From contig NZ_LNDC01000135.1 of the NCBI RefSeq assembly GCF_001870905.1, positions 1-64,000 on the forward strand: a DNA stretch of 64,000 bases. Reading direction: 5' to 3'. The first letter of the stretch is position 1. Each line of letters starts with the position of its first letter. The notes beneath the pieces were generated by a model that was not told the DNA's origin, did no database searches, and saw only the letters and a list, made by a program, of their open reading frames with translations. This DNA comes from Geitlerinema sp. PCC 9228. Lineage in GTDB: Bacteria > Cyanobacteriota > Cyanobacteriia > Cyanobacteriales > PCC-9228. Of this stretch, positions 51,470 through 63,604 are shown in pieces. The position numbers and the translations under genes were made by a program.

Positions 51470-51533
51470 TAGAGTTACTATAAAAGAATTTATAATTTCT
51501 CGATTCTATTGGTATTTTACGAGAAAAGATGGG

Positions 51534-51605
51534 AGATTGAAAGCCTTGCCTCTTTCCCAGCCGGGAGGAAAAGCTCCCCGTGTGGCTTTAGTCGCCGTTA
51601 CCATC
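51534..51605 (+). mobile_element. Putative left end of an IS200/IS605-type element
   Basis: Two hairpin-like parts joined by GGGAGGAAAAG lie about 60 bases before the tnpB pseudogene. The block 51541-51573 aligns without gaps to 62780-62812, with about 25 of 33 bases equal and a run of 13 identical bases (GCCGGGAGGAAAA, 51560-51572 and 62798-62810). Sub-terminal hairpins are typical of the ends of this transposon family. Confidence 0.55.
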
Positions 51606-51666
51606 AAGTCCAGGTACTAGAATCTAGAAAAGCAGGCGAAATTTCTTAAACCTATTTTTGTTCATT

Positions 51667-52294
51667 ATGTTGACTCTCAGCTACGAATTCTCCCCTCCAA
51701 CCGACATGCCGCCAGGCTCAAACGATGGAGTTGTGATGGGAAATCTGTCGGCAAGTTGGGAATGATGGGCTGAGAGAACGCCAAGATGGGGTCAAATCCC
51801 AAAAATCGCCTGTCAACGCCTGTCGTCTGGGAGGCGAGTACATCATTCCTGCCGATCTCCCTCGCCCTACCTCTGCCAGTCAGTGCAAGGCATTAACACC
51901 AAGCTAAGAAAGACCATCCCCAACTGAAAATCCCCCGATCGCAAGTCTGGTAGCAAATGCTTTGGCGTAGCTCAGCACAAGCGCTCAAATGTTTGGAGAC
52001 CGTATGGGTGGCTATGTATTGACGGGGATTTGGTTTTCCTCGTTTTAAGAAAAAAAAGGGCGGTTTCGCTCCTTTGTTTTTCCTAAAGTCAAGGAAACCT
52101 GTATCGAAGGGAATTAAATTGACTTTTCGAAAATTGGGAAACTACGGTTTTTTAAGTCTCGCTCTCTTCGGTGAGGGCTTTAGCGAGCAGGTACTATATC
52201 ATTTTATCCGATGCAAGTGGATGTCGAAGTTCCCCAATCACCTATGAGCGGTCATGCCATAGGGATTGGTTCTGCTGAAGTTGCGATCGCATGA
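51667..52294 (+). pseudogene. tnpB: Decayed, truncated tnpB (IS200/IS605 OrfB)
   Basis: Readable only across frameshifts and stops. The ATG at 51667 opens MLTLSYEF, the usual TnpB start. In another frame near 51755-51905 comes LRERQDGVKSQKSPVNAC, then EYIIPADLPRPTSASQCKAL. After a further shift at about 51905 comes AKKDHPQLK, then RGFGFPRFKKKGRFRSFVFP (about 52030-52090), with in-frame stops. It ends with VEVPQSPMSGHAIGIG, just where the first RuvC Asp (GID) should be. The catalytic half and the right end are missing. This guide-RNA-directed nuclease is therefore dead here. Confidence 0.88.
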
Positions 52295-52340
52295 CTTGAG
52301 GGGACAGAAATTGAATTTTAACCTCACAGAGCAACTGACA

Positions 52341-53798
52341 TCAACCCCGCCGCCAGGTAAAAAAGGTTTCCCGCAGGCGTTGGCGTAGGGGGTGGCGCTG
52401 GCGCTTTTGTTCTTGCCAGCTGTCGTACAGTCGTTGGAACAGTTCGCTGTAGCTGGGCATCATGGGAACGATGGTGGCGATCGCTTCGATGCTTTTTTTT
52501 TGGCGGATGAGAGCAGCCAGGGGTACGATGAGTTCTCGGGCGTGGGGAAGTAACAAATGAGCCCCAAGCAATTTTCCATTGCTCTTTTGCAAAACGAGTT
52601 TGGCCAATCCCACTGGCATCCCATCCACTTGCATGGCTCGCAGGTCGGTCAGCGAGTGGCGCAGCACCACAATGCGATCGCCGTAGCGTCTTTGGGCTTG
52701 AGCTTCGGTCAATCCCACCCGTGCCATTTCCGGTTGCGTACCAATTCCCCAAGGAATGCCTTGGTAGTTGGGAGAAAACCAAGGGGCAAACAGGGCATTT
52801 TTGACAGCAATTTCCGCTTCGTAGCAGCCGATGTGGGGGAAAGGGTACCCCCCCAAAAGACTCCCGCAAGCATAAATCTGCGGGTTGGTGGTTTGTAGTT
52901 TGGCATTGACCTGCAGCCGCTTTTTCCCAGTACGGGTTAAATGCCATTTGACGCCCACCGTTTCTAAATTCCAGCCTTCCAAATCCGGTTGATAGCCAGT
53001 GGCAAAGACAATTTCATCGCTTTCAATGGCACGATTGCCGGCAAGAACCCATTTTTTCTGTTGAATTTCTTGAACTTGGGTTACAGTAGCTTGGGTCATT
53101 ACGCGCACGCCACTGGCTTCCAAGCTAGCTTGCAGCAGGTATGCAATTTCTGGGTCTTCTTTCGGCAAAATGTGAGAGCTTCCCACCAATAAAGTCACGT
53201 TGCTACCAAATTGCTGCCAAATTTGGGCGAGGTGAACGCTGGCTGGGGAAGCCCCCACAATGGCCATTTGCGATGGCAAATTTTCGCGTTTGGCGAGTTC
53301 GCCAATGGTTTCGCTGTCTAAATAGCTGGTGGTTACCAAACCGGCAATTTGTGGAATGTGGGGTTGGACCCCCGTCGCTAGCAGGTAGGCTCGCGATCGC
53401 AGGGAACGCCGTTCGATGGCAAAGGCGAGTTTGGGGAATTTGACAAACCGACCGGTTTCGCAGACGAGGTCAATACCCAGGCTTTCTAAAACAGATGGCG
53501 ATTGAGCGGCCATCAAATGGCGAACTACCTCAGCGCCCCATATACGAGCGCGTTTGACCGGGTGATTTTCTCCTCCCCGAATTTGGGTAGCCGCAAAAAC
53601 ATCATCCCGCAGGCTTCCTCTGGTGGATACGGTACGTTCCCAAATATCTCTTAGTTCCAAACCGCTACTTTCCCATGCTTGGGTCGCCGATGGCGGCCAA
53701 ACCAGGGCTACGCGGGCACCCCACTGACGAGCAGCGATCGCTGCCCGCACGCCGGCGGGGCGATTTCCGATTACAACCAGATCGTACTCTGCCGCCAT
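52341..53798 (-). CDS. Pyridine nucleotide-disulfide-type flavoprotein without redox cysteines
   Basis: 485 residues from the ATG at 53798. FAD motif YDLVVIGNRPAGVRAA at the start, LLATGVQPHIP near 140-150, the NAD(P) motif MAIVGASPASVHLAQIWQQFG near 190-210, FATGYQP and YACGSLLGGYPFPHIG, then the C-terminal dimerisation domain. The GGTC-x4-C active-site pair of glutathione/mercuric reductases is absent, and the C-terminal HPT-x-E motif reads MPSYSE. So it is a flavoprotein of this fold that cannot perform dithiol chemistry; its electron acceptor is unknown. Confidence 0.85.
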   Translation of the reverse strand: MAAEYDLVVIGNRPAGVRAAIAARQWGARVALVWPPSATQAWESSGLELRDIWERTVSTRGSLRDDVFAATQIRGGENHPVKRARIWGAEVVRHLMAAQSPSVLESLGIDLVCETGRFVKFPKLAFAIERRSLRSRAYLLATGVQPHIPQIAGLVTTSYLDSETIGELAKRENLPSQMAIVGASPASVHLAQIWQQFGSNVTLLVGSSHILPKEDPEIAYLLQASLEASGVRVMTQATVTQVQEIQQKKWVLAGNRAIESDEIVFATGYQPDLEGWNLETVGVKWHLTRTGKKRLQVNAKLQTTNPQIYACGSLLGGYPFPHIGCYEAEIAVKNALFAPWFSPNYQGIPWGIGTQPEMARVGLTEAQAQRRYGDRIVVLRHSLTDLRAMQVDGMPVGLAKLVLQKSNGKLLGAHLLLPHARELIVPLAALIRQKKSIEAIATIVPMMPSYSELFQRLYDSWQEQKRQRHPLRQRLRETFFTWRRG

Positions 53799-62053: not shown

Positions 62054-62725
62054 TTAACAAGCTCCTTCTTTGGTCAAGACGACGCCAATCGTTTTCAAGA
62101 TTAACTTCAGATCGTAGGCGAGCGACCATTTTTTCTGATAGTTCAAATCCATTTTGACAATGTCGTTGAAGTTGGTTACTTGAGAGCGACCGTTGACTTG
62201 CCACTCGCCAGTAATTCCTGGTTTAACCTCCAAACGCTGCCAGTGAAAATGGCTGTATTTACTGACTTCATCTAAAGTTGGCGGCCGGGTACCCACCAGA
62301 CTCATGTCTCCTTTTAAAACATTCCAAAACTGAGGAAACTCATCGAGGCTGGTTTTGCGGAGAATTTTACCCGCCGGTGTTATGCGGGGGTCTTCGTTGT
62401 TTTTAAAGATGTGCCCGTTGGCTTGGTTTTGCACTTTATGTTTGAGCTGGTCGGCGTTGACCACCATGGAACGAAATTTCCAAATACGGAAGGGCTTGCC
62501 TCGCCAACCGCAGCGCATTTGCGAGTAGAAGATGGGACCCGGACTGTATATCTGGATGGCGATCGCAATGGGGATTAAGGCGATCGCAGTTAGCGTTAAG
62601 CCGACTAAAGCACCGACGATATCGATGGCACGTTTGGCAGGGCTAAGTACAGCTGGGTGGATCGACCGCTGGTGGGATGGTGCGGACAACCACTGTTGGC
62701 TGTTGAGGGATACATCATTGCCCAT
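62054..62725 (-). CDS. Undecaprenyl-phosphate sugar transferase
   Basis: Starts polysaccharide synthesis by transferring a sugar phosphate to a lipid carrier. About 223 residues from the ATG at 62725; GTG at 62755 and TTG at 62779 are longer alternatives, and the TTG would lie against the IS605-like left end. One membrane helix (IDIVGALVGLTLTAIALIPIAIAIQIYSPGPIFY, about 32-65) precedes the bac_transf domain with RIWKFRSM, KTSLDEFPQFWNVLKGDMSLVGTRPP and EVKPGITGEWQVNGRS. WbaP/CpsE-type. No glycan cluster is beside it. Confidence 0.9.
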   Translation of the reverse strand: MGNDVSLNSQQWLSAPSHQRSIHPAVLSPAKRAIDIVGALVGLTLTAIALIPIAIAIQIYSPGPIFYSQMRCGWRGKPFRIWKFRSMVVNADQLKHKVQNQANGHIFKNNEDPRITPAGKILRKTSLDEFPQFWNVLKGDMSLVGTRPPTLDEVSKYSHFHWQRLEVKPGITGEWQVNGRSQVTNFNDIVKMDLNYQKKWSLAYDLKLILKTIGVVLTKEGAC

Positions 62726-62777
62726 AGAAGCTGGAACTTTAGAGGTAGTAATCACGGAAAATCTCCGATACGTTTGC

Positions 62778-63130
62778 AAGCCCTGTCGCTTTTAGCGCCG
62801 GGAGGAAAAACGAACGGCGACTAAAGTTGCCTTCCCCACGCCCACTGAGAGCGAAAAGAGGTGCAGTTTCCGCTCTTTCGGTGTTAGAGCCGGAATCGCC
62901 TCCCCGGCACAGCGTTATGTTTTTCTTGCCCATGTTTTTAGGGCTGGTCGAGCTAACGGCATGGCCTTCCCCCTGGTAGGGCGGTTGAACCGTTAACGGC
63001 AGGGCAACAAACACCGAAAGTATTTGTAGGTGCCATGACCCTAAAAACGTAGCCCCCAAAGGGCGAAGGGCTGGTCAGCTCCCTGAAGCTGGAGGCATGA
63101 AGCCCCAGTACTTCAGCCGGGGGTGCTGAC
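62778..63130 (+). mobile_element. Non-autonomous IS200/IS605-like element
   Basis: Starts with the same left-end block found before the tnpB pseudogene (matching bases 62780-62812), then a palindromic hairpin GGCGACTAAAGTTGCC (62817-62832). It ends with two hairpins: CTCCC...GGAG (about 63080-63094) and CCCC...GGGG (63103-63122) followed by TGCTGAC. The interior (about 62940-63100) is GC-rich and structured, as expected of a TnpB guide-RNA scaffold. No tnpA or tnpB coding sequence lies inside; the 106-residue frame on the - strand is an incidental open frame. The boundaries are approximate. Confidence 0.5.
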
Positions 63131-63604
63131 GGCTTTCGGCAGGTTTTCCTTTCACGTACTGTCTTTTCCCTGTACTATACCCAATGGCTGCCCCTACTGT
63201 GGGGTCTCACCGGCAAGGTTTGCAAAAACTTTAAAAAAGATTGCGACTTCGTAAAATTCTCCTAATCCTTACAAGGGATTTGGTATATTTCCTTACTTTC
63301 ACCACCGGCCATCGCTATCCGGGGAAATACTTAAAATTGGGCACGAGATGTGGGATAGAAATTTCCCTTGGGACTAACAATTTCAGGGATTATACGTAGG
63401 AATGCCAAAATCCAAACAACCCACCTTGTCCCTAAATTCTGGAAGCAAGTTGCTAGAACTTTGCTAGCCACCAACCCCCCAAACGCGATCGCTATAACCT
63501 CTTAGAAAAAGCATTTACCTCAGTTGCACTCTTGTTTTCCCACCTTTTGAAGAATATTACTGTTTTGCGATTGACGAATAAAAGCCTCTTTGATTTCTAG
63601 ATAC
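63131..63604. other. Non-coding stretch between the mobile element and the last gene
   Basis: About 470 bases, AT-rich in the second half. A small hairpin CCCCTAC...GTGGGG lies near 63195-63208. No gene recognised. Confidence 0.5.

Follow-up and report, generated by a model that had tools for sequence, protein, structure and literature searches.

The window, a stretch of 64,000 nucleotides of Geitlerinema sp. PCC 9228 (contig NZ_LNDC01000135.1, positions 1 to 64,000), carries an orphan HEARO RNA and not a complete IscB locus, with iscB absent directly downstream. Sequence comparison makes it highly probable that this RNA belongs to a nonautonomous element of the IS200/IS605 superfamily which arose from an iscB-carrying ISC element; the loss of iscB would have left the two transposition ends and a complete omega-RNA gene in place. 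IscB is the ancestor of Cas9, and HEARO (RF02033) is the omega RNA of IscB.

Identity and parts of the element

The minus strand of positions 62914–63130 matches HEARO (Rfam RF02033) over the full model (1–211), at 110.1 bits and E 1.4e-23; the gathering score is 83. HEARO is the sole Rfam family above its gathering score in the region 62778–63130; U6atac lies far below its own. The parts of the element and its surroundings are the following:

62756–63130, minus strand: whole nonautonomous ISC-type mini-element, 375 bp, reading GTCAGC...GATTTTCC in omega-RNA orientation, with sharp ends in dispersed copies and unrelated flanks
62752–62755, minus strand: target tetranucleotide GTGA (TCAC on the plus strand), presumed part of the IscB target-adjacent motif of the empty site
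62914–63130, minus strand: HEARO / IscB omega RNA, full length
63131–63146, minus strand: putative guide AAACCTGCCGAAAGCC, about 16 nt, the flank directly 5' of the omega RNA, different in each copy
62756–62832, no strand given: far (IS605 'left') end, which the iscB-carrying elements also have and to which the left end of the tnpB family is homologous
62833–62913, no strand given: interior, occupying the place of iscB in the parent and holding most of the deletions among copies
62054–62755, minus strand: exopolysaccharide sugar transferase (TIGR03025 and others), ATG at 62725–62723
51516–52269, plus strand: fossil of the tnpB family, a related element outside the mini-element, 11 kb away, with a homologous left end

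The guide length of about 16 nt is presumed from general knowledge of IscB systems.

The initial annotation had described a small transposase-less IS605-like element with a possible orphan guide RNA of the TnpB type, lying on the plus strand with its guide at the 3' end. The element stands as described, with sharp ends in its copies and no recognised tnpB or iscB coding sequence within it. A guide-RNA gene without a nuclease is likewise present, and the guide position had been placed properly, just beyond 63130, in the flank directly 5' of the omega RNA. The covariance-model search that had been advised does give a match above the gathering score; this match is to HEARO on the minus strand, however, and not to an RNA of the TnpB type, so that the guide lies at the 5' end and the partner protein elsewhere in the genome would be an IscB instead of the TnpB proposed. 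In the HEARO orientation, a transcript would start above 63130 and run leftward, co-directional with the sugar transferase, rather than end near 63125. The two hairpins seen on the right side exist, but form the 5' part of the minus-strand HEARO. The interior had been called structured, and both strands do fold better than shuffled sequences (z −2.3 on the plus and −2.7 on the minus strand). The right border at 63130 was retained; the left border, set at 62778, was 22 bases short of the true start at 62756, which follows TCAC.

Palindromes are seen at both ends of the mini-element (GTCAGC..GCTGAC; GGCGACTTAAGTCGCC), and their recognition by a Y1 transposase is predicted. A BLASTn search with the 81-base interior against the iscB loci of related genomes gave no match. 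Within the omega RNA, a hairpin followed by TTTTT (63051–63072, minus strand) resembles an intrinsic terminator and could shorten a transcript. No sigma-70-like promoter was found upstream on the minus strand.

Copies in the genome and iscB-carrying parents

The genome (4.8 Mb on 223 contigs) holds 47 DNA matches to the element at E ≤ 1, about 17 of which are full-length or span the greater part of the query, at 69–91% identity. Genome-wide there are 43 HEARO matches, with 22 exceeding the gathering score, and at most about six of the 43 loci have a recognisable iscB coding sequence beside them. Read in RNA orientation, nearly all copies of the main family start with GTCAGC (a few differ by one base), and most terminate in ...CGTATCGAAGATTTTCC, followed by a variable tetranucleotide, which is mainly GTGA and in other copies GTGC, GCGA, GTAA or CTAA. 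The copy ends are constant and without target duplication, a 4-base target adjoins them, and the sequences on both sides are unrelated. Therefore, the element was delimited to 62756–63130 (375 bp), plus the tetranucleotide at 62752–62755; as the latter differs among copies, it is probably part of the flank.

Six dispersed elements of about 96 bp (L094 on contig C94, L099 on C155, L102 and L111 on C105, L110 on C129, L112 on C110) carry nothing of the omega RNA beyond base ~93 and stop exactly before GTGA, their ends lying precisely at GGTGA. In these elements, a formerly internal hairpin apparently serves as the new transposon end. Their dispersal implies that movement is possible without the full omega RNA or its core. 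Two more HEARO subfamilies occur in the genome (on C140, C59 and C69b, and on C37b and C112), one of which differs in its 5' end and lacks the GTCAGC terminus.

Full-length relatives, which the initial annotation had advised to seek along with further copies, were found as well. The 1.6-kb element on contig C98 shares the omega RNA (query 1–230) and the far end, and carries an iscB ORF that matches NCBIfam guided_IscB (NF040563) with 431 bits against a cut-off of 175. Contig C89 holds a second iscB-carrying element with the same ends, which contains assembly gaps. A third such element, in Phormidium willei BDU 130791, agrees in omega RNA and far end; both its ends match, and the IscB between them is 87% identical over its whole length. 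In all three, the omega-RNA block sits directly upstream of iscB. Since the C98 element shares both ends and the omega RNA, the comparison indicates that the mini-element is an iscB (ISC-type) element whose protein gene was lost and whose guide-RNA gene was kept. Retained from the parent are the RNA side (bases 1–217 to 1–230) together with the 81 terminal bases of the far side, and between these lie about 80 bases without a traced source. Copies with partial iscB remnants on contigs C122 and C171 represent other degrees of core loss.

In our reading of its alignment to solved IscBs, the IscB of C98 keeps the RuvC-I Asp, the RuvC-II Glu and the HNH His. The RuvC-III His is Tyr in this protein, which is encoded by the single complete iscB ORF, and is His in 24 of 24 matched relatives; the IscB of C89 has this His. 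Contig C169 encodes an HNH-less protein with IsrB (8dmb) as its best solved relative. About 100 bp upstream of the start of this IsrB-like gene lies an orphan mini-element (L073, C169:8896–9884), which may have displaced, or may now replace, the gene's own omega RNA.

Left end and transposase

The mini-element and the tnpB fossil have 13 identical bases in common (GCCGGGAGGAAAA), as the initial annotation had noticed, and this block reflects homology rather than chance. Alignment of the consensus left end of the tnpB family with that of the mini-element family gives a score of 32 (best of 5000 dinucleotide-based shuffles: 18), and alignment of the left ends of the two elements in the window themselves a score of 22 (best of 5000 shuffles: 19). 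Homology between the two extends across the entire left end. The stretch 51500–52345 belongs to a separate family of about 40 mostly incomplete copies, and the TnpB identity of the fossil is the reading of the initial annotation, taken over without a protein model. Several copies of this family consist of just ~85 bp of the left end.

Because the left ends of the iscB- and tnpB-type families are homologous, a common transposase is suggested, and movement of the mini-element in trans by a Y1 transposase is the most likely course. Y1 genes are present in the genome. By pairwise alignment, a similar left end is clear only at the Y1 gene on contig C20 and borderline at that on C46; the C20 copy looks broken and the C46 copy shortened, so that no intact cognate transposase emerges among the Y1 genes with similar ends. 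A BLASTn search for the ends of the mini-element at Y1 transposase genes gave no match.

Selection on the omega RNA

The stems of HEARO covary strongly across subfamilies, and recent orphan copies appear to decay almost neutrally. In 28 HEARO sequences from several subfamilies and relatives, both-sided change was found in 31 of 63 pairs, as counted on the Rfam structure (RNAalifold recovered just part of the HEARO structure from the alignment). These changes amount to 101 cells against 37.5 in shuffles (0/500), a control that is inflated by relatedness, with partners slid by 1 to 3 columns giving 9 to 43 cells. Among 17 recent orphan copies, compensatory changes were no more frequent than in shuffles (7 cells and 7.0, respectively), and one-sided stem changes preserved pairing in 15 of 69 cases, with 12.5 expected.

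Substitutions in full-length orphans reach 5.2% in stems, 9.6% at unpaired sites and 8.0% outside the RNA. Variants shared by at least two copies number 16 at 108 stem sites, 36 at 109 unpaired sites and 41 at 162 sites outside (stem versus outside: Fisher p 0.048, or 0.15 without the first 60 bases, which form the terminal hairpin). Deletions affect 8.3% of cells in the interior against 2.3% in the RNA. The substitution signal is weak and stems from one of several tests; it may mean that the source elements kept a working RNA while single copies decay.

Insertion upstream of the sugar transferase

The insertion had been placed correctly, at the 5' end of the sugar-transferase gene: gene and mini-element share a strand, and 26 bases plus the tetranucleotide separate the element from the ATG downstream. 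Inside the target GTGA lies a GTG in frame with the gene (62755–62753), and the element contributes a GGAG a few bases upstream of this GTG, at ribosome-site distance. In 21 of 28 copies, the omega RNA points the same way as the longest ORF downstream of it (binomial p 0.013), a count that depends on crude ORF assignment and on the examination of two sides (upstream side: 18/28). In a search for the empty site among the nearest genomes, which are of the same order only, no genome aligned with the joined flanks across their junction; the coding part of the sugar transferase alone was found.

Possible role in trans and alternative explanations

From these data, we propose that the element would have spread by single-strand transposition, with a Y1 transposase acting in trans on the ends that are common to the iscB and tnpB families. 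With each insertion the omega RNA would acquire another flank on its 5' side, and each copy would thereby encode a guide for its own empty site. Excision of the Y1 type would join this flank (the guide) to the target tetranucleotide; at the promoter of the sugar transferase, the predicted empty site reads ...GCCGAAAGCC joined to GTGATTACTACC. The junction of guide and GTGA is what an IscB with that guide would cut, and it would be absent from the occupied site. An IscB made elsewhere could thus cut the empty site by means of the orphan guide, and the copy could be restored from the sister chromosome. One paper (PMC11870625) describes retention of a transposon through such cutting by TnpB. We regard present-day use of the orphan omega RNA in trans by IscB as possible and lean towards doubting it. 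Less probable still is a swarm in which about 20 nonautonomous elements or more, each an independent omega-RNA gene with a guide specific for its own site, parasitise one or two IscB proteins in trans.

About an even chance may be given to a role as inert passenger, which shares the origin preferred here and differs in the present role: the omega RNA would be kept because its 5' hairpins are the end recognised by TnpA, IscB would make no use of it, and the copies would be decaying fossils. The lack of a covariation excess in the orphan subfamily and the preservation of pairing after one-sided stem changes at about the expected frequency are consistent with this, as are the dispersal of 96-bp elements with the terminal hairpins alone and the altered RuvC-III residue of the C98 IscB. 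However, about 20 copies keep the full 217-nt RNA, far beyond the end, and the gathering of deletions outside the RNA, together with the weak deficit of stem substitutions, mainly in shared variants, argues for more than retention of an end.

Domestication of the insertion as a 5' leader of the sugar-transferase mRNA, comprising a structured leader and a ribosome site without any guide role, appears improbable. The common strand of element and gene, the GGAG followed by the in-frame GTG at the junction, and the co-directionality of copies with downstream ORFs would fit such a leader, yet that count depends on a crude ORF assignment, and the junction is the ordinary target motif GTGA. Least credible by far is a TnpB guide-RNA element on the plus strand with its guide at the 3' end. 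Homology of the left end with the tnpB family and a guide in the same flank would fit it, but HEARO on the minus strand covers the whole right side, iscB in C98, C89 and P. willei is directly preceded by the same block, and no RNA family of the TnpB type reaches threshold. The derivation from an iscB-carrying ISC element is the best explanation.

Relation to known systems

Like the IscB omega RNA, the RNA described here matches the full-length HEARO model, has its guide position at the 5' end and is found upstream of iscB in the parents; unlike it, no iscB is present here, and the iscB genes of C98 and C89 lie elsewhere in the genome. ISC elements were reportedly described by Kapitonov et al. 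in 2015 as IS200/IS605 superfamily transposons with IscB. The mini-element resembles them in both ends, in the 4-base target without duplication and in the parent layout seen in C98 and P. willei, but has no protein gene and measures 375 bp against about 1.6 kb. To TnpB reRNA / IS605-IS1341 elements, the mini-element is linked by its left end, which the tnpB family in this genome has in homologous form, and it differs from them in RNA type, in strand and in the position of the guide within the RNA. That some HEARO copies lack the ORF has reportedly been noted already in the founding literature.

Palindrome-associated transposable elements (PATE) of Haloquadratum are transposase-free, nonautonomous elements of the IS605 type that arose by core deletion (PMC3119063). 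They resemble the mini-element in the lack of a transposase, of terminal inverted repeats and of target duplication, in near-terminal palindromes common with the IS605 type, and in core deletion, whereas the mini-element is cyanobacterial, descends in all probability from an iscB element and still has the whole guide-RNA gene. One paper on cyanobacteria (PMC8400943) names HEARO RNAs along with group I and II introns and treats them as post-mobility intron remnants. A literature search, outside of which the founding papers on HEARO and omega RNA lay, found no paper describing iscB-less HEARO elements as mobile units.

The kind of element is thus already known, and the ratio of guide RNAs to nucleases is unusual, with about 40 guide-RNA loci to one or two nucleases. 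P. willei has 4 HEARO matches and about as many IscB, and 5 of 5 HEARO in G037, a complete genome from the same order, are paired with IscB. In two others of this order (G015, G039), most of the HEARO matches listed have no listed IscB beside them, and orphan HEARO are common there too.

The shared left end of iscB and tnpB elements within one genome would be expected if a single transposase serves both. The present finding makes it a testable question whether IscB guide RNAs act in trans for elements that have lost their nuclease, and whether such action helps nuclease-less elements to persist. If the many orphan copies did draw on one or two IscB proteins in this manner, one enzyme would defend dozens of insertion sites, and the copies would form a transposon-derived multi-guide array scattered across the genome.
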